A DNA stretch of 64,000 nt from Zhaonella formicivorans (GTDB lineage: Bacteria; Bacillota; DUOV01; Zhaonellaceae). The notes under the pieces were generated by a model. It had not been told where the DNA came from. It did no database searches and saw only the letters and a program-made list of their open reading frames with translations. Made by a program: the position numbers and the translations under genes. The DNA lies in NCBI RefSeq assembly GCF_004353525.1, contig NZ_CP085524.1:2390142-2454141 (forward strand), read 5' to 3'. Of this stretch, positions 1 to 53,404 are shown piece after piece (the stretch's first letter is position 1; each line of letters begins with the position of its first letter).

Positions 1-2350
1 GGTCCCCTTCCGCCCGAAGTTCCTCAACCATCTCCACTAACCGGGCAACTTTGGCTGAACGCCCGCGGCCTAAAGCCCCCCTATTTTCCTTTAAGATCAG
101 GTTGGGATGGTCACAGACCTGCTTCAATTTTGTTAAGGCAGCCAGGATGATCCCCCGTTTTTCCATACCTTCGGCATGGGTGAGCCGCTCAAACATATCG
201 GCAATGATATTTTCGTATAAAGAAGCCTGTTCCGCTGTCAAAGTAACGTATTCTTTGAACTCCTCCTTCTCCGGCAGATCAAGTTCGATGGCCGGATCCG
301 TTTTCACCCTGCGCAGGAGAAAAGGCTGTACTAACCGCTTAACCCTGGATACAGCTTGTGCATCTTTGCTTTTTTCAATAACGTTCACAAATTTACGGGT
401 AAATGCTGTTAAGCTGCCAAGGTAACCAGGATTCAGAAAGTCCATAATAGACCATAACTCAGTTAAGCGGTTTTCCATAGGAGTCCCGGTCAGCGCTATC
501 CTGTGGTTGCCGCGCAGGCTGCGGATAGCAACAGCCTGTTTGGTATAAGCATTTTTGATATTTTGGGCTTCATCCAGGCAGATACAGCCCCAATCCAGGG
601 AAGTCAGTTCTTCCCTGTCATGATGGGCCAGTGTATAAGAGGTAATTACCAAATCCTTGCCCAGCACCGCAGGAGCGAAATCTTCCCCTTTAACACGCTG
701 GGGACCGTAATGCAAATAAACCTTGAGCCCCGGGGCAAACCGCTTCAGCTCCATCTGCCAGTTGCCGATTACTGAAGTAGGGCAGATGAGCAAAAAAGGA
801 TTTGCGTCCTGTCCCTCTTCTTTGCAGCCTAACAAGTAAGCTATCAGTTGAATGGTTTTTCCTAAACCCATGTCATCGGCCAGACAACCGCCTAGGCCGA
901 ACCGGCGCAAAAACATCAGCCAGGAATAACCAACCCGCTGGTAGCCCCGCAGCACCCCTTGAAAAGCTTGCGGCGGTCCTAACAGTGGCAGGCGGGAAAT
1001 CTCAGTCAATTGACTGATCATCCCTCCCAGTTGGGAGTTTAACTCTACCTCCACGGGGAACGGATGCTCCATGGATTCGCTAGGCCCTGCTGAATCCTCC
1101 TGTCCCCCGTCACCGGCCAACAAATGCAGTCGCAAAACCTCCCCTAAAGACATCCCATTTCTTTTTGCTTTTAGGGTTTTTTTAATCTGCTGCAGGAGGA
1201 GGGGGTCAAGCTGAATCCACCGGCCCTTGATTTGCATTAGACGCCTTTTCTCTTCTGCCAGACGGTTGAACTCCTCCACCGACAGCTCCAAATCGCCGAT
1301 GGCCAGTTTCCAGTCAAACTGGACTATTTGCTCCAACCCAAACAGGGAATTCTGCAAAGAACCCACCGATGATTTGGTTTTCGCCTTAAGTTTGGGCCTC
1401 TCCTTGCGCACTTGTTCCCACCAGGCGGGTAAAAAAACGGTAAAACCGGCTTCGGCTAACTGCATGCTGCCGCTGTTTAAAAACTCCCAGGCCTGCTCTT
1501 CTGTAAGTTCCCGGATGATGCCGCTTTCAACGGACTGGTCCTTTAACCAGGGTAAAAGCCGAGTCCATTTTTGGATCTGTTTTTCCGGCTGATCAAGGTA
1601 GGACCGCCAGTGTTCAGGGTAATTATCTTTCGATGTCGGTTGATTTTGCTCGTATGGAACAAGTAGATGGGGGTTTTCCTTATCCTGCAAAACAATATTT
1701 AGGCTCCAGGAGGAACTGCCTTCAGGCTCCCGCAGCTGTAGGCAGGTGATAAAAGGAGTATGATCCTGTTTCCAGCCTATAGCCTCTAACCAGTCTTCCT
1801 CGCTCAATAGATTTTCTACCCCATGGTTTTCCAAGCGAAGCAAAGGATAAGTATCCATAAGGGCTTGCCAGGCCATAGCCAACTCCTGGTTTTGCCCGAT
1901 TAATTCAGGAATGATTGCATCAAGCCATTCCTCCAGGTAAGAAGGTGCGCCTCTCTTTTCCATCCCTTGCGGATAAACCAATTTCCATCCGGTTTTGCCC
2001 TTTTGCCACTTATCGTAGTCCGGCAGCCAACTGCCACTGACCAGCAGTTCCTTAAACACAGGGGCGATTTGCGCCAAGAGCTGTATTTCTTTGCTCCACT
2101 CTACCGAGAAAAACTCCGGCTCCGGCAAGTGGGCAAAAAAATCCAAGGCCGTAACAGGGGATAATTGGATGGCCTTTTTACCTTCGTAAACTGTTTCGGG
2201 AAGAAAAGTCCCGTAAAAGGAGGGACTGTGCCAGGCAAAGAGATTTAGTTTTAAGTTCAGATTATTCCAGCTTGCTGGCTTGCTCCAGAGCAAAAAGCCC
2301 TGGGATGGCTCCCACCGGCAAAACACTTTAAGCTTAGGTTTACCCTTCAT
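1..2350 (-). CDS. SNF2-family DEAD/H-box helicase, C-terminus beyond window
   Basis: This is a large SNF2/Rad54-type ATP-dependent DNA translocase, open at the window edge. About 783 residues are visible. Reading the minus strand gives the Walker A-like motif DDMGLGKT near residue 491 and the DEAQ box (LDEAQNIKN) near residue 592. Motif III-like ALTGTPMENR follows. Helicase motifs V and VI would lie outside the window. The roughly 450 residues before the ATPase core match the bacterial SNF2 helicase-associated region in position, and no transmembrane stretch is seen. The ATG at 2350 overlaps the stop of the upstream SWIM gene (ATGA), so the two are translationally coupled. Bacterial SNF2 and SWIM proteins are commonly paired; the partner function is unknown. 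Stops before 1 cannot be judged. Confidence 0.9.
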   Translation of the reverse strand, partial: MKGKPKLKVFCRWEPSQGFLLWSKPASWNNLNLKLNLFAWHSPSFYGTFLPETVYEGKKAIQLSPVTALDFFAHLPEPEFFSVEWSKEIQLLAQIAPVFKELLVSGSWLPDYDKWQKGKTGWKLVYPQGMEKRGAPSYLEEWLDAIIPELIGQNQELAMAWQALMDTYPLLRLENHGVENLLSEEDWLEAIGWKQDHTPFITCLQLREPEGSSSWSLNIVLQDKENPHLLVPYEQNQPTSKDNYPEHWRSYLDQPEKQIQKWTRLLPWLKDQSVESGIIRELTEEQAWEFLNSGSMQLAEAGFTVFLPAWWEQVRKERPKLKAKTKSSVGSLQNSLFGLEQIVQFDWKLAIGDLELSVEEFNRLAEEKRRLMQIKGRWIQLDPLLLQQIKKTLKAKRNGMSLGEVLRLHLLAGDGGQEDSAGPSESMEHPFPVEVELNSQLGGMISQLTEISRLPLLGPPQAFQGVLRGYQRVGYSWLMFLRRFGLGGCLADDMGLGKTIQLIAYLLGCKEEGQDANPFLLICPTSVIGNWQMELKRFAPGLKVYLHYGPQRVKGEDFAPAVLGKDLVITSYTLAHHDREELTSLDWGCICLDEAQNIKNAYTKQAVAIRSLRGNHRIALTGTPMENRLTELWSIMDFLNPGYLGSLTAFTRKFVNVIEKSKDAQAVSRVKRLVQPFLLRRVKTDPAIELDLPEKEEFKEYVTLTAEQASLYENIIADMFERLTHAEGMEKRGIILAALTKLKQVCDHPNLILKENRGALGRGRSAKVARLVEMVEELRAEGD

Positions 2351-26262: not shown

Positions 26263-27042
26263 CTATGCGTTGCTATGCTGTTTTGCTATCAGCAAGAGCT
26301 TTAAGCATTGGAAAAAAGGAAACCCCGGGTTACCCCAGGGTCGATAATTCCAATAACTATTCACATTCATCCATATACCGCACACGATCCCTACCAGCGG
26401 CTTTGGTGGGATCCACCAGGTATCCCATATAGTACCCGCCAGTTCCACTTCGCTGTTTATCGGTTCATTTCTGTCCAAAGCTTCGTCTCCGCAGCAGAAA
26501 TAGCATCTGGTGCCGGGTAAAGGACTGCCTGTTTTTTCCAATGATATCTTGTATTCATCAGTCAGGGATGCCGTACCGTGAATGCTTCCCCAGCAATAAC
26601 CTCCTACTTTTGTTCCCACCATTTCCGCCGCTTTATTCTGTGCCAGAATACGGCGTTCCCTTGAAACAAGCCAGGCCGGGCTGGGAATGCCCTCCAGCAT
26701 CAGGCGGCACTGCTCCTCTTTGCACCTTTTTTCCTCTTCCAATTGTTTTCTTTCGGTCAGGTCAGCCACCAGTGCCAGGCATAATTTTTCTCCCCCATAA
26801 TCGAAAAGCTGTAAATTTATCTCCACAGGATACCGGGAACCGTCCTTCCGGCGGTGCACTGTGTTAAATAAGACCTGCTCCTGTTCCCCGCCGAGCAGTG
26901 GGTTAAGGAGTTCCCTGAAGCTCTGCAGGTCAAATTCGGGCTTGAGGTCAAGGGGTGTCCTGGTGCTCAGTTCTTCGATAACCATTATCTTCTCCTGGCC
27001 CTGGAAGGTATAGCTAACGATTCCTTCCTCTCCTCTGGCCAT
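26263..27042 (-). pseudogene. Deleted duplicate of the PAS-GGDEF gene
   Basis: The interval 26326-26979 is nearly identical to the gene at 29659-31317. It keeps the PAS core (RRKDGSRYPVEINLQLF to SEVELAGTIWDTWWIP) and the last bases before the stop. However, about 517 bp encoding the end of the second PAS region and nearly all of the GGDEF domain are missing (the equivalent of 29710-30226). Because 517 is not a multiple of three, the residual tail is read in another frame (PPKPLVGIV...). The receiver domain is missing too, replaced by about 20 unrelated residues. The ORF stays open but cannot make a diguanylate cyclase. A variant of the terminator hairpin is also copied (26326-26342). Confidence 0.85.
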
Positions 27043-29658: not shown

Positions 29659-31317
29659 CTATTCACATTCATCCATATACCGCACACTATCCCTACCAGC
29701 GGCTTTGGCTTCGTACATATAGTTGTCTGCCCTTTGTATCAATGTATCGATAGTATCTCCGGGGCAGTAGCCGGCAACTCCGAAGCTGGCTGTTACTCTG
29801 CCCACACCCGGTATATCCATACGGCTTATGCTTTCCCGCAGTTCTTCCGCCAAACGGACCGCATTTTTTACCGTTGTATCCGGCAGAAGTATGACAAATT
29901 CCTCCCCGCCCCAACGGGCCAGGGTATCTATTTTGCGGATCCTGTTCTTAATCAATTCTGCCATGCTTTTAAGGACTGAATCACCGGCATTATGGCCAAA
30001 GCGGTCATTGATGCTCTTAAAGCGGTCTATGTCCAGCATGATCAGGGAAAACTTACTGCCTGCCCGCTTGGCCCGTTCTATTTCTTCCTCCAGTTTTTGT
30101 ACAAAATAGCGGCGGTTATAGCTGTTTGTCAGGCAATCAGTTACAGATAAACAGCGCAGCTCCTCTTCCATTTTTTTGTACCTGGTAACATCATTAGCAT
30201 AATGAAGATAGACACCCTCTCCCAAAGGGATCCACCAGGTATCCCATATAGTACCCGCCAGTTCCACTTCGCTGTTTATCGGTTCATTTCTGTCCAAAGC
30301 TTCGTCTCCGCAGCAGAAATAGCATCTGGTGCCAGGCAAAGGACTGCCTGTTTTTTCCAATGATATCTTGTATTCATCAGTCAGGGATGCCGTACCGTGA
30401 ATGCTTCCCCAGCAATAACCTCCTACTTTTGTTCCCACCATTTCCGCCGCTTTATTCTGTGCCAGAATACGGCGTTCCCTTGAAACAAGCCAGGCCGGGC
30501 TGGGAATGCCCTCCAGCATCAGGCGGCACTGCTCCTCTTTGCACCTTTTTTCCTCTTCCAATTGTTTTCTTTCGGTCAGGTCAGCCACCAGTGCCAGGCA
30601 TAATTTTTCTCCCCCATAATCGAAAAGCTGTAAATTTATCTCCACAGGATACCGGGAACCGTCCTTCCGGCGGTGCACTGTGTTAAATAAGACCTGCTCA
30701 TGTTCCCCGCTGACCAGTGGGTCAAGGAATTTCCTGAAGCTCCGCAGGTCAAGTTCGGGCTTGAGGTCAAGGGGTGTCATGGTGCTCAGTTCTTCGATTG
30801 TATATCCCAGGTTTTTTCTGGCAGCGCGGTTTACAGCAACAAATTTTAAGGAGTTCGGATGAAAAATATATAGTTCATTCAGGGAGTTTTCAAACAGCCG
30901 CTCAAACATCCTGGCATAAGCATTTGCTTCATGAAGTTTCAAAGCCATTTCCACTGTGGATAGCAATGCAGCTTTATCCATACCTTTTAGCACGAACCCA
31001 TAAGCCTTGACCTCTTTTATTTTATCAATAATTTCGCCGGATGTGTTGGCGGTGAGAAATACAACGGGAATATCCCGGGATTTAATTATCCTGCGGGCCG
31101 CATCTATCCCGTCCGATTCCCCCGCTAATTCGATATCCATGAGGACCAGGTCAGGCGGGAAGCAGCCACTTATCTTTTGCACCGCTTCTTCCCCTGTAAC
31201 GGCGGTTTCCGTCTCATATCCGTTTTTATGCAAGAAATCCTCTACAACCTTAGCAGTTAAGCGGCTGTCTTCCACCAGCAATATCTTTTTACTTTTTTGC
31301 AAATTCTCACCGTGCAA
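29659..31317 (-). CDS. REC-PAS-PAS-GGDEF diguanylate cyclase
   Basis: A 552-residue signalling protein. A receiver domain (residues about 8-130, ILLVEDS, LVLMDIELAG, FVLKG) is followed by a PAS domain (about 140-255), a second PAS-like segment with the Cys-rich CYFCCGDEA, and a C-terminal GGDEF domain. The catalytic loop is GGEEF, and the product-inhibition site RXXD sits five residues upstream (RKIDTLARWGGEEF). It should make c-di-GMP from GTP when phosphorylated or ligand-bound and be feedback inhibited. The middle of this gene was copied to 26.3-27.0 kb with deletion of the cyclase domain. Confidence 0.92.
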   Translation of the reverse strand: MHGENLQKSKKILLVEDSRLTAKVVEDFLHKNGYETETAVTGEEAVQKISGCFPPDLVLMDIELAGESDGIDAARRIIKSRDIPVVFLTANTSGEIIDKIKEVKAYGFVLKGMDKAALLSTVEMALKLHEANAYARMFERLFENSLNELYIFHPNSLKFVAVNRAARKNLGYTIEELSTMTPLDLKPELDLRSFRKFLDPLVSGEHEQVLFNTVHRRKDGSRYPVEINLQLFDYGGEKLCLALVADLTERKQLEEEKRCKEEQCRLMLEGIPSPAWLVSRERRILAQNKAAEMVGTKVGGYCWGSIHGTASLTDEYKISLEKTGSPLPGTRCYFCCGDEALDRNEPINSEVELAGTIWDTWWIPLGEGVYLHYANDVTRYKKMEEELRCLSVTDCLTNSYNRRYFVQKLEEEIERAKRAGSKFSLIMLDIDRFKSINDRFGHNAGDSVLKSMAELIKNRIRKIDTLARWGGEEFVILLPDTTVKNAVRLAEELRESISRMDIPGVGRVTASFGVAGYCPGDTIDTLIQRADNYMYEAKAAGRDSVRYMDECE

Positions 31318-43720: not shown

Positions 43721-44374
43721 TCACGTAACTTCTCTAAGCATTTGGGCTGTTACGTTTATAAAATGTTTTACTAAATCCGAATCAAACTGTCTTCCGCCAT
43801 TCTTTTCCAATTCTGCCCAGCAATCTTCACAAGTCTGAGTTCTACGGTATGGTCTAGGAGAGTTCATTGCATCAAAGGCATCGGCAATACAAACGATCTT
43901 AGCGCCAATAGGTATATCATTACCACATAAGCCGATATAACCATGGCCATCTATCCTTTCGTGGTGATAAGCAACAATAGGAAGCAAACCTGCACTCCAT
44001 TTGTAACGAGTTAGTATCCTCACCCCAAAATGGGGATGTCTAAGAACAAGTTCCCATTCTTCCGCATTTAAAGCCCCAGGCTTATCCAGGATGATAGGTG
44101 AAATTTCTATTTTTCCTAAATCGTGAAATAATGCCCCTAAAGCAATTTCATTAACTTCGTTCTGGGTTAAACCAATTTTTTTTGCCAGTAACACAGCCAA
44201 GCGGGAAACATTTAAGGAGTGGCGAAAGGTGCTCAGGTGATGCTGTTTGATCAGCCAAGCTAATTTTATGACCTCTCTAATCTTAAACGGGCTTAAATGA
44301 TCGGCTTTAAAATTAATTTCTTTAAATAATTCGGGCAGGGTTAATACCTGGAACGCAGAGTAAGTGGCTGGCAA
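43721..44374 (-). CDS. HD-GYP-type c-di-GMP phosphodiesterase
   Basis: A 217-residue HD-GYP protein. Metal and catalytic motifs are in order: RHSLNVSRLA, GALFHDLGKIEI (HD), HPHFG, AYHHERIDGHGY and IADAFDAM. The diagnostic GYP tripeptide reads GYI here, a variation that may alter partner or substrate specificity. It lacks N-terminal sensor domains. It should degrade c-di-GMP to pGpG or GMP. The start is TTG 44374 with AGGGGG 7 bases upstream, directly at the end of a c-di-GMP-I riboswitch, which implies feedback of the ligand on its own hydrolase. Confidence 0.87.
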   Translation of the reverse strand: MPATYSAFQVLTLPELFKEINFKADHLSPFKIREVIKLAWLIKQHHLSTFRHSLNVSRLAVLLAKKIGLTQNEVNEIALGALFHDLGKIEISPIILDKPGALNAEEWELVLRHPHFGVRILTRYKWSAGLLPIVAYHHERIDGHGYIGLCGNDIPIGAKIVCIADAFDAMNSPRPYRRTQTCEDCWAELEKNGGRQFDSDLVKHFINVTAQMLREVT

Positions 44375-44386
44375 AAAAAATCCCCC

Positions 44387-44475
44387 TTCGGTAGCTGGCT
44401 GCCATAGCTTTTCAGCCGTAGGCCCTATAGCTTTGCGTCGCTGTCTTTCGACAGTTTAGCCTTTATCGGGCGGTA
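44387..44475 (-). promoter_or_regulatory. c-di-GMP-I (GEMM) riboswitch
   Basis: The minus strand reads GATAAAGGCTAAACTGTCG, the GAAA tetraloop between TGTC and GACA, then the invariant GACGCAAAGC (plus 44430-44439 reversed), TAGGGCCTA, and GGCAGCCAGCTACCG. These are the conserved elements of the GEMM-I aptamer. The aptamer's 3' end runs into the ribosome site (ACCGAAGGGGG) of the HD-GYP gene, so control is probably at translation initiation. Confidence 0.9.
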
Positions 44476-44681
44476 AGCGCAGGAATATTATGCCATATAC
44501 TGTTGATCTATGTCAATATTTAACCACAAACAAGAGGTTAACTTATTCTTTTTTTCAAAGTTCCTCCTTGTCCTCTGAAAGGCCCTGGCACAGCGCAGAA
44601 GGTTCTAAAAACAACTTTTTCCCAAAATCCGATGCATAGAAAAGCCGTAGGTCAAAAACGCCGTTTAGCGCTTCCTGCGGC

Positions 44682-45528: not shown

Positions 45529-46008
45529 TCACTTATGATACGGCTCACCCCGGACAATCTTAAAGGCCCGGTAAACCTGTTCCAGCAAAATCAGGCGCAC
45601 CAGTTGGTGGGGGAAAGTCATGGGGGAAAGGCAGAGCAAAAAGTCGGCCTGGGAGAGCAGGCTGGGGGCCAGCCCCAAGGAACCGCCGATGAGAAAAGTG
45701 AGATCGCTTTTGCCTGCCAATGTCAGGGTGCTTATTTTTTCCGCCAGCCCTTCGGAACTGAGCATTTTCCCTTCCAAAGCCAATGCGATCACATAGGTTC
45801 CCGGCTTTAGGTTTTTGGCAATTTTCTCCCCTTCCTTTTCCCGGACCTGCAGTTCCTCGGCAGCCGAGGCATTTTCGGGGGCCGGTTCATCGGCCACTTC
45901 AACAATTTCCACTTTGGCATAAGGGCGCAGCCGTTTGAGGTACTCGGCTATTCCTTCTTTTAAGTATTTTTCTTTCAGTTTGCCAACGGCAATAATTTTA
46001 ATTTGCAT
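45529..46008 (-). CDS. rlmH: 23S rRNA (pseudouridine1915-N3)-methyltransferase, intact copy
   Basis: A 159-residue SPOUT-family enzyme that uses SAM to methylate pseudouridine 1915 of 23S r[22 protein letters not shown] at the start, [34 protein letters not shown] and the end [11 protein letters not shown] are all typical; the length is the family standard. GGAGACCTGA precedes ATG 46008. A second copy with a one-base deletion lies at 52627-53105, so the whole 777-bp block (45531-46307) is duplicated. This copy is the functional one. Confidence 0.95.
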
Positions 46009-46076
46009 TCAGGTCTCCTTCGCTAGTCTCCAATGTGAACAACATTTTGGTATCCTTGCCTTGCAATTTGATTTCC

Positions 46077-46134
46077 CCCTTATAATAGAGATTTGGGCAA
46101 GGACTACCATCAATCTCTATTATAAGGGTTTTTT
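46077..46134 (+). terminator. Perfect 17-bp inverted repeat with a U-tract
   Basis: CCCTTATAATAGAGATT (46077-46093) and AATCTCTATTATAAGGG (46112-46128) followed by TTTTTT on the plus strand. No plus-strand gene precedes it. TATAAT-like hexamers lie within both arms, so it may instead belong to the rlmH promoter or a small mobile repeat. It is copied at 53174-53231. Confidence 0.55.
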
Positions 46135-46280
46135 CTTGCAAAGGCATGGTATTTCCACGTTTTTGTACCGATTTTGGAGCTTGACAAACACAAACTTTAT
46201 TTATGCAACTCTAGTGATGAATAATGAAAATTTGCTTGTCGGTGCAGCTAAGAAAATCAGCTTTATTCAGCTAAATAAAA

Positions 46281-46307
46281 TGAGTCAAGGAACCGTCCCC
46301 TGACTCA
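46281..46307. repeat. 27-bp palindromic repeat, copy 1
   Basis: TGAGTCA-AGGAACCGTCCCC-TGACTCA with 7-bp arms. Identical units occur at 53378-53404, 61900-61926 and 61945-61971. The first two are in the rlmH duplication, the last two form a tandem pair. It looks like a REP/BIME-like intergenic repeat. Confidence 0.7.
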
Positions 46308-46317
46308 CCGACGGACC

Positions 46318-46584
46318 TCCCCGGGTAAGAACGCTGTCTTTCCCTCCATCTACCCGCCACATTTACTCTCGGCAGCCTTTAGTAGCAAGGACTTTGCTTT
46401 GATTTACAAGCTCATCCAACTGCCGCTAGCCTCTTATGTGGTTTCTGTTCGTCGGGCCGGAGGTTTGCCGCCGACTTCCTTCAGATTCTACCTCGCGGTG
46501 GACACCCTTGTCTTAAGCTACGGCTACTGCTACCTTCACCGTTCGGGACTTTCACCCGTAAGCCTTCGCCCATGCCGGGCGCAC
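46318..46584 (-). mobile_element. Group II intron 5' remnant (domain I)
   Basis: Read on the minus strand it begins GTGCGCCCGGCATGGGCG, the consensus 5' end of group II introns, and continues with GGGTGAAAGTCCCGAACGG, GGTGTCCACCGCGAGGT, CTGAAGGAAGTCGGCGG, AAACCTCCGGCCCGA and ends near TTCTTACCCGGGGAGGTC. These are domain I elements. The reverse-transcriptase ORF and domains V-VI are missing. The intron lies directly after a terminator hairpin and ATATTTT, the site preference of group IIC introns. Confidence 0.8.
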
Positions 46585-46776: not shown

Positions 46777-47631
46777 TTACCTCAGTTCGGGGACATTATA
46801 TTCAATTTCTTCTATATTCAGTTTAGCATAACGATAATCACCTTCAGGAAAATGCCAAATAGCTTCTCCATAAGCGGGGAGCTTCATACCCTTTATTTCC
46901 TTATACTCTGTGACCGGAGTCGACCATCTTGCTTTTTGATAAGTTTTACCTGTCGGCGAATAGAACCTATCTTCTGAGACAAAGTTTATTAATTGGCCTC
47001 GGTCATTGAAATAGAGCTCTGCGGATATTACATAACCGTTATTATTAAAATGGGCTTTTACTGTGTGTTCATTTATAACTTCCCATTTGATCCTATCGTC
47101 AATAAGACTTGCCGGTGCCAATAGACACATATCATTAAAGACTGTGACGGTTTCGCCTTGGTTCATCTCTTGCCCCTTACCATCAGCAACAGTAACTAGT
47201 CCTCCCAGTTTTATTAGCATAGAAGCAGTTGCATTTGAATAAGAATGTAAGCCAATCACCGGCAACCCGAACATCCTCATTTTTAGAAAATATATTCTGG
47301 TAGGTTGTTCAAAAAAATTGTACTGATATGTTTTGATCCGGGACCATCCTCTTTTTGGATCCGTTTTAAACTCACCCTCCATAACAACCCTCATATTCTT
47401 TACTTTTTCCTTGCCTAAAGCACCGGTGTAGATAAGGTATTTTTGCACTGCATCAGGTAGATGTTTTATATCATCCTGCGTCAGAATGTTCTCTGTCGAG
47501 CTTATTGATTGGAGGGCCATTAATATCTCTTTTTCATACGCTCTTTTTAAATCTTGAGACCTGTACAGGGATAATAAAATAACCAATACCCCTATTAAAA
47601 TTAAAACTGGCAATATTAAGTGTCTCATCAT
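46777..47631 (-). CDS. DUF6544-like membrane-anchored protein
   Basis: A 284-residue protein with one N-terminal membrane helix (HLILPVLILIGVLVILLSLY) and a long extracytoplasmic or cytoplasmic domain. It includes LPDAVQKYLIYTGALGKE, MRVVMEGEFKTDPKRGWSRI and FNDMCLLAPASLIDDRI. These resemble the conserved family now called DUF6544. Function unknown. Start is ATG 47631 (MMRHL) with GGGGG 8 bases upstream. The genes upstream on the strand are a flavodoxin and a truncated TetR, a grouping that may be a single inducible operon. Confidence 0.65.
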   Translation of the reverse strand: MMRHLILPVLILIGVLVILLSLYRSQDLKRAYEKEILMALQSISSTENILTQDDIKHLPDAVQKYLIYTGALGKEKVKNMRVVMEGEFKTDPKRGWSRIKTYQYNFFEQPTRIYFLKMRMFGLPVIGLHSYSNATASMLIKLGGLVTVADGKGQEMNQGETVTVFNDMCLLAPASLIDDRIKWEVINEHTVKAHFNNNGYVISAELYFNDRGQLINFVSEDRFYSPTGKTYQKARWSTPVTEYKEIKGMKLPAYGEAIWHFPEGDYRYAKLNIEEIEYNVPELR

Positions 47632-52626: not shown

Positions 52627-53105
52627 TTACTTATGATACGGCTCTCCCCGGATAATTTTAAACGCCCGGTAAAGCTGTTCCAGCAAAATCAGGCGCACCA
52701 GTTGGTGGGGGAAAGTCATGGGGGAAAGGCAGAGCAAAAAGTCGGCCTGGGAGAGCAGGCTGGGGGCCAGCCCCAAGGAACCGCCGATGAGAAAAGTGAG
52801 ATCGCTTTTGCCTGCCAATGTCAGGGTGCTTATTTTTTCCGCCAGCCCTTCGGAACTGAGCATTTTCCCTTCAAAGCCAATGCGATCACATAGGTTCCCG
52901 GTTTTAGGTTTTTGGCAATTTTCTCCCCTTCCTTTTCCCGGACCTGCAGTTCCTCGGCAGCCGAGGCATTTTCGGGGGCCGGTTCATCGGCCACTTCAAC
53001 AATTTCCACTTTGGCATAAGGGCGCAGCCGTTTGAGGTACTCGGCTATTCCTTCTTTTAAGTATTTTTCTTTCAGTTTGCCAACGGCAATAATTTTAATT
53101 TGCAT
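52627..53105 (-). pseudogene. rlmH: Second rlmH copy, frameshifted
   Basis: The same 160-codon frame as at 45529-46008, but one base is missing near 52873 (CCCTTCAAAGCC for CCCTTCCAAAGCC), so the frame breaks at ALALKGK and the second half ([13 protein letters not shown] onward) is in a different frame. The 5' flank out to 53404 is nearly identical to that of the intact copy, including the inverted repeat and the 27-bp palindrome. It lies on the htrA side of the island. Confidence 0.9.
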
Positions 53106-53377
53106 TCAGGTCTCCTTCGCTAGTCTCCAATGTGAACAACATTTTGGTATCCTTGCCTTGCAATTTGATTTCCCCCTTATAATAGAGATTTGGGCAAGGA
53201 CTGCCATCAATCTCTATTATAAGGGTTTTTTCTTGCAAAGGCATGGTATTTCCACGTTTTTGTACCGATTTTGGAGCTTGACAAACACAAACTTTATTTA
53301 TGCAACTCTAGTGATGAATAATGAAAATTTGCTTGTCGGTGCAGCTAAGAAAATCAGCTTTATTCAGCTAAATAAAA

Positions 53378-53404
53378 TGAGTCAAGGAACCGTCCCCTGA
53401 CTCA
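53378..53404. repeat. 27-bp palindromic repeat, copy 2
   Basis: Same unit as 46281-46307, at the edge of the rlmH duplication. Confidence 0.7.

Follow-up and report, generated by a model that had tools for sequence, protein, structure and literature searches.

Introduction

The closest described systems are the c-di-GMP-I (GEMM-I) riboswitches Vc2 and Cd1. Vc2 is a translational OFF switch in which the closing helix P1 is the key element, and loss of P1 abolishes ligand binding (PMC9262584; also PMC7371385). To judge from the title of Inuzuka 2018, cited in PMC9262584 and PMC7371385, the ribosome-binding site that Vc2 masks is distant from the aptamer. Cd1 is reported to bind its ligand without P1 (PMC9262584), which counts against a model of OFF control based on this helix.

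The aptamer class, translational OFF control by GEMM-I, and designs that place the ribosome-binding site inside an aptamer are each already known separately. In the open-licence papers searched, a set without the founding GEMM papers, no description was found of a GEMM-I switch that uses the ribosome-binding site as a strand of P1, or of a riboswitch-governed subgroup of HD-GYP proteins lacking the proline of the motif; priority is uncertain in both cases.

The locus described here lies in a 64,000-nucleotide stretch of the Zhaonella formicivorans genome (NZ_CP085524.1, positions 2,390,142 to 2,454,141), referred to below as the window. In it, a c-di-GMP-I aptamer runs directly into the ribosome-binding site of an HD-GYP-type gene. 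On balance, P1 itself is probably the expression platform, with the ligand turning the gene OFF. The features are listed in Table 1. Leaders and loci compared with the window are labeled with L and a number.

The aptamer and its junction with the gene

The aptamer matches RF01051 over the full length of the model (positions 1 to 87) with a score of 77.0 bits (E 2.2e-13; gathering score 35). It has few non-standard pairs, and its consensus sequence and P2/P3 fold place it above the curated score. The alignment contains AAAGGC, GCAAAGC, and CCGAA, the segments expected to contact c-di-GMP. We take the contact bases to be G20 (rather than A20), C92, and A47 in Vc2 numbering. Plain folding of the leader gives a stability that is not unusual (z 0.72).

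The last base of the aptamer, the A at 44387, is also the A of AGGGGG, and no gap separates the aptamer from the ribosome-binding site. Read on the minus strand, the junction is ...GCUACCGAA, then GGGGG A UUUUUUUU G CC.... The 3' end of the aptamer, 5' to 3', is ...CAGCUACCGAA, followed directly by GGGGGAUUUUUUUUGCC. The original prediction, that the end of a GEMM-I aptamer touches AGGGGG and overlaps the ribosome-binding site of a c-di-GMP phosphodiesterase gene, is borne out, for a gene of the HD-GYP type, by the aptamer, the junction, and the HD_5 match of the product.

The UUG start codon (44374-44372) lies within the end of the U8 run. Reading on from it, no further in-frame ATG, GTG, or TTG occurs before the HD domain, and the position of the start codon is common to the homologues. 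Given the promoter-like site in Table 1, the transcript probably begins at about 44480, a few bases 5' of the aptamer, as judged from the consensus match. Similar TTGACA / TGnCAYAAT sequences were seen by eye right before the aptamer in L009, L032, L033, L034, and L035.

Table 1. Features of the riboswitch locus, in window coordinates.
Feature	Position	Strand	Basis or remark
Promoter-like TTGACA-N18-CATAAT, TG before the -10	44487..44516	(-)	11/12 consensus letters
CCGCCC, proposed P1 5' strand	44468..44473	(-)	Best duplex with GGGGG, -7.8 kcal/mol
c-di-GMP-I (GEMM-I) riboswitch aptamer	44387..44471	(-)	RF01051; one of seven in the genome
Ribosome-binding site AGGGGG, proposed also to be the P1 3' strand	44382..44387	(-)	Sequence
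U8 run between ribosome-binding site and start, overlapping UUG; possible terminator tail	44373..44380	(-)	Sequence
Single-domain HD_5 / HD-GYP-related protein, 217 aa, UUG start	43721..44374	(-)	Pfam HD_5 1.1e-24

Conservation of the arrangement in relatives

The comparison rests on a phylum sample; the family and class samples are three genomes. The closest homologues elsewhere, which share 43-55% identity and come from several families of the phylum, have the aptamer directly before the gene. Thirteen leaders of this gene type were compared (the window, L009, L032-L037, L060, L140-L142, and L162). They share the order aptamer, G-rich ribosome-binding site, usually a U-run, and start codon, and the G-rich site follows the aptamer immediately. 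In the nine leaders measured, 11-14 nucleotides separate the aptamer from the start codon, and UUG or GUG serves as the start codon of 12 of the 13.

A DNA pattern consisting of the aptamer end followed directly by GGRG occurs 20 times, at 19 distinct sites, in 13 of the 398 genomes scanned, while the reversed pattern has no match in the same 398. A stricter pattern has no match in three genomes. Because homologues in other families keep the order and the reversed pattern is absent, the abutment of aptamer and ribosome-binding site before this gene type is more than chance. Genes of this type follow eleven of the 19 sites. Going by names taken from sequence reading, other sites lie before secreted transglutaminase-like proteins (L147, L152, and L159), a PAS/kinase-like protein (L156), and a flagellar flgB-type operon (L163).

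A U-run of at least five nucleotides follows the G-rich strand in 10 of the 13 leaders, compared with 4 of 50 window genes that have a ribosome-binding site (the riboswitch gene included). This frequency fits a transcriptional form of OFF control, in which the ligand-locked P1 stem and the U8 run would act as an intrinsic terminator and hiding of the ribosome-binding site would be secondary. In L157, L158, and L163, P1 and the U-run lie so far from the next gene that masking is impossible, and termination is therefore likely at these leaders. In the window, however, P1 is short and bulged, and L033, L036, and L162 have a broken U-run or none. The gene at 46777-47631(-), where no aptamer is reported, likewise combines GGGGG with a U7 run and a start codon. 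Termination as the main route is considered unlikely for the window, where masking and termination both yield OFF.

Several leaders and genes in the sample have a composition of their own. Genome G080 carries four copies of the riboswitch and HD-GYP-type gene (L034, L140, L141, and L142), and the L142 copy has an internal stop codon. L147, 1506-1733(-), has two class I-type aptamers in tandem 5' of its secreted transglutaminase-like gene. Of the two, the first seems to be tied to a terminator and the second abuts the ribosome-binding site, an arrangement that might give a band-pass response. The L157 leader, 912-1592(-), contains two class I c-di-GMP aptamers in tandem and then two of class II, four in all. 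Each class I aptamer has a G-rich strand and a U-run after it, and the downstream gene encodes a surface-type protein with DPDGDD repeats. L158, 1467-1882, has a class I and a class II aptamer within about 420 bases of one leader, and inspection by eye shows a further class II-like copy between the two.

The proposed closing helix P1 and the probable direction of switching

The sole strand available for the 3' side of P1 is the sequence after CCGAA, which is the ribosome-binding site. As this site is the only partner for P1, bound c-di-GMP should hide it. The structure line of the Rfam c-di-GMP-I-GGC consensus pairs the first base of the model with the g right after cgaa, and this g corresponds to the first G of the GGGGG run in the window. 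The window candidate, CC(G)CCC/GGGGG, is short and has a bulge. The clearest P1 pairs are ACUUUUC/GGAGAGU in L152, ACUUUUC/GAGGAGU in L163, GAUUUCC/GGGGAUU in L033, and CACCUC/GGGGUG in L037.

Pairing of the 5' flank with its own 3' flank is better than with swapped flanks in 18 non-redundant leaders of all gene types (mean -6.16 versus -4.47 kcal/mol, p=0.00025). Three flank choices were tried in this set, and p ranged from 0.00025 to 0.007. In HD-GYP leaders alone, the own-versus-swapped difference is not significant (p=0.075). Against shuffled flanks, neither the window (p=0.94) nor the HD-GYP leaders combined (p=0.43) gave a significant result, and the P1 match of the window is no better than its base composition would give.

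When the aptamer core is forced to form, the unpaired fraction of the ribosome-binding site drops from 0.62 to 0.39 in the window; the effect is inconsistent in relatives. In the free ensemble, the site partly pairs with the 3' end of the aptamer, and the probability of pairing with the aptamer 3' half is 0.37 for the window, 0.59 for L037, and 0.73 for L009. These values would suit an ON switch, in which a CC GAA GG hairpin holds the site in the free state and the ligand releases it, so that c-di-GMP induces its own breakdown by negative feedback. The pairing involves few base pairs, however, and is near zero in L033, L034, L032, and L141. Releasing the 3' bases of the aptamer would also let P1 form on the same ribosome-binding site, and the sister HD-GYP gene at L004 is predicted to be OFF. 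We regard an ON switch as quite unlikely.

The original prediction left the direction open between induction of c-di-GMP breakdown and its opposite. The anatomy of the junction, the relatives, and the sister riboswitch L004 favour OFF, the opposite of induced breakdown.

In the OFF model, the mRNA would begin just 5' of the aptamer. At low c-di-GMP, P1 would be unstable and AGGGGG free, and the UUG-started HD-GYP-type phosphodiesterase would be translated. Once c-di-GMP is bound, as predicted from the aptamer sequence, P1 would be locked; because its 3' strand would be the ribosome-binding site, translation would be blocked. Transcription termination at the U8 run may contribute, again giving OFF. 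High c-di-GMP would then mean less of the enzyme expected to destroy it, a positive (double-negative) feedback with latch-like behavior.

Other c-di-GMP elements of the genome

The genome has seven c-di-GMP-I sites. By functions taken from sequence reading, these include L002, 5' of pilus assembly genes, L006, 5' of a chemotaxis receptor, L003, 5' of a zinc-ribbon-like protein, and L004, 5' of a second HD-GYP-type gene. In the last of these leaders (L004 612-1586(-), G000:C1 near 1236297-1237058), a terminator serves as the platform of a c-di-GMP-I(-GGC) riboswitch. This terminator has a probability of 0.00 in the free ensemble versus 0.73 with the aptamer core formed, a predicted OFF. The terminator of the L002 pilus leader goes from 0.98 in the free ensemble to 0.23 with the core formed, a predicted ON. 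Turning pili ON and the phosphodiesterase OFF when c-di-GMP is high would be coherent with a sessile state.

Other HD-GYP leaders were less clear. For the terminator-type leaders L044, L143, and L059, antiterminators drawn by hand pointed to OFF; this was not confirmed by the ensemble calculation, which gave no clear direction. In L062, no clear expression platform was found. A c-di-AMP aptamer at L014 1256-1384(-) (105 bits) was considered as a controller of an HD-GYP gene in the same genome; it sits just downstream of that gene and therefore does not control it.

Cyclases at 29.7 and 31.6 kb had been put forward as a possible source of the ligand. Their GGDEF domains are confirmed; the genome has seven in all, and these two are not special in this respect. 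The ORF at 26263-27042(-) is almost word for word the PAS part of the cyclase at 29659-31317(-), without the GGDEF domain, and looks as if it were a partial duplication.

Two further features were recorded in the window. A group II intron domain D1-D4 match is present at 46330-46502(-) with 145.7 bits. The ORFs at 45935-46303 and 53032-53400 are identical or near-identical, which suggests a repeated element.

The HD-GYP-related protein

The product matches Pfam HD in addition to HD_5. Its best solved relative is PmGH (4MCW; 6e-26), which we take to be a c-di-GMP phosphodiesterase of the HD-GYP type, and the next is 5Z7C. Aligned to PmGH, the metal ligands of the H..HD..H..HH..D pattern are all present (H52, H84-D85, H113, H137-H138, and D165). 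S48 stands where PmGH has the glutamate of PET..H, presumably a ligand of the third metal.

The motif reads HHERIDGHGYIG, with a longer reading of HHERIDGHGYIGLCG. The literal GYP motif (HHExxDGxGYP) is absent, and the protein is therefore termed HD-GYP-related rather than a full member. A GYI in place of GYP had been noted earlier. The motif is real, but by alignment with PmGH the proline is missing through a one-residue gap and is not replaced, and this form is usual in the subgroup. Of 35 relatives scanned for riboswitches, all 17 with a c-di-GMP-I match lack the proline. Nine have the proline and no match, and nine have neither. Proline loss is associated with the riboswitch match at Fisher p=0.001, a value not corrected for common descent. 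Since all 17 riboswitch-linked relatives lack it, the loss, as read from these sequences, is a trait of the whole subgroup and not an oddity of the window gene.

The protein is expected to cleave c-di-GMP as a phosphodiesterase and belongs to a subgroup that lacks the proline of GYP. A protein that is inactive, or that cleaves another cyclic dinucleotide, would leave the riboswitch real and remove the feedback loop. The missing proline points that way, as does 5Z7C, which is named as a phosphodiesterase specific for 3'3'-cGAMP. Yet all metal-binding residues are kept in nine of nine aligned members of the gene type, the closest solved relative is PmGH, and a c-di-GMP sensor 5' of the gene fits c-di-GMP as the substrate. 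Lack of c-di-GMP cleavage is judged improbable; should these proline-less proteins leave c-di-GMP intact, the feedback claim would be lost and the riboswitch claim would remain.

Significance

In several bacterial families, a subgroup of genes expected to encode phosphodiesterases bears a c-di-GMP riboswitch, with at least two kinds of platform. If OFF is the true direction, one RNA and one enzyme would make a feedback loop that could latch cells in a high-c-di-GMP (sessile) state. It would also be a compact, easily tested off-switch, its ribosome-site helix being defined. A broader reading is offered tentatively, as possible rather than probable. In it, the ribosome and c-di-GMP would compete directly for one strand of the GEMM-I element, with no separate platform; this design would serve as an RNA-based bistable latch in the proline-less HD-GYP subgroup and recur before secreted transglutaminase-like and other genes.

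Comparison with known systems

PmGH and the window protein share the HD_5 domain and the metal ligands H, HD, H, HH, and D. The window protein differs in being single-domain, one residue shorter at GYP, and in having S48 for the PET..H glutamate.

In preQ1 and SAM/SAH-type translational riboswitches, going by general knowledge and the titles of papers, the ribosome-binding site lies inside a ligand-locked fold with no separate platform, as proposed for the window. Their aptamers and ligands are unrelated to those of the window.

Cd1, from the flgB operon of Clostridioides difficile, has the same aptamer class and is an OFF switch, as proposed for the window. Unlike the window switch, it is transcriptional, uses a separate terminator, and is reported to lack P1 (PMC9262584).

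Vc2 (tfoY/VC1722, Vibrio cholerae) also has the same aptamer class and exerts translational OFF control with P1, the control proposed here. Its ribosome-binding site is distant, whereas that of the window is fused to the aptamer and would be a strand of P1. The target of Vc2 is a regulator, and the target in the window is an HD-GYP-type gene.
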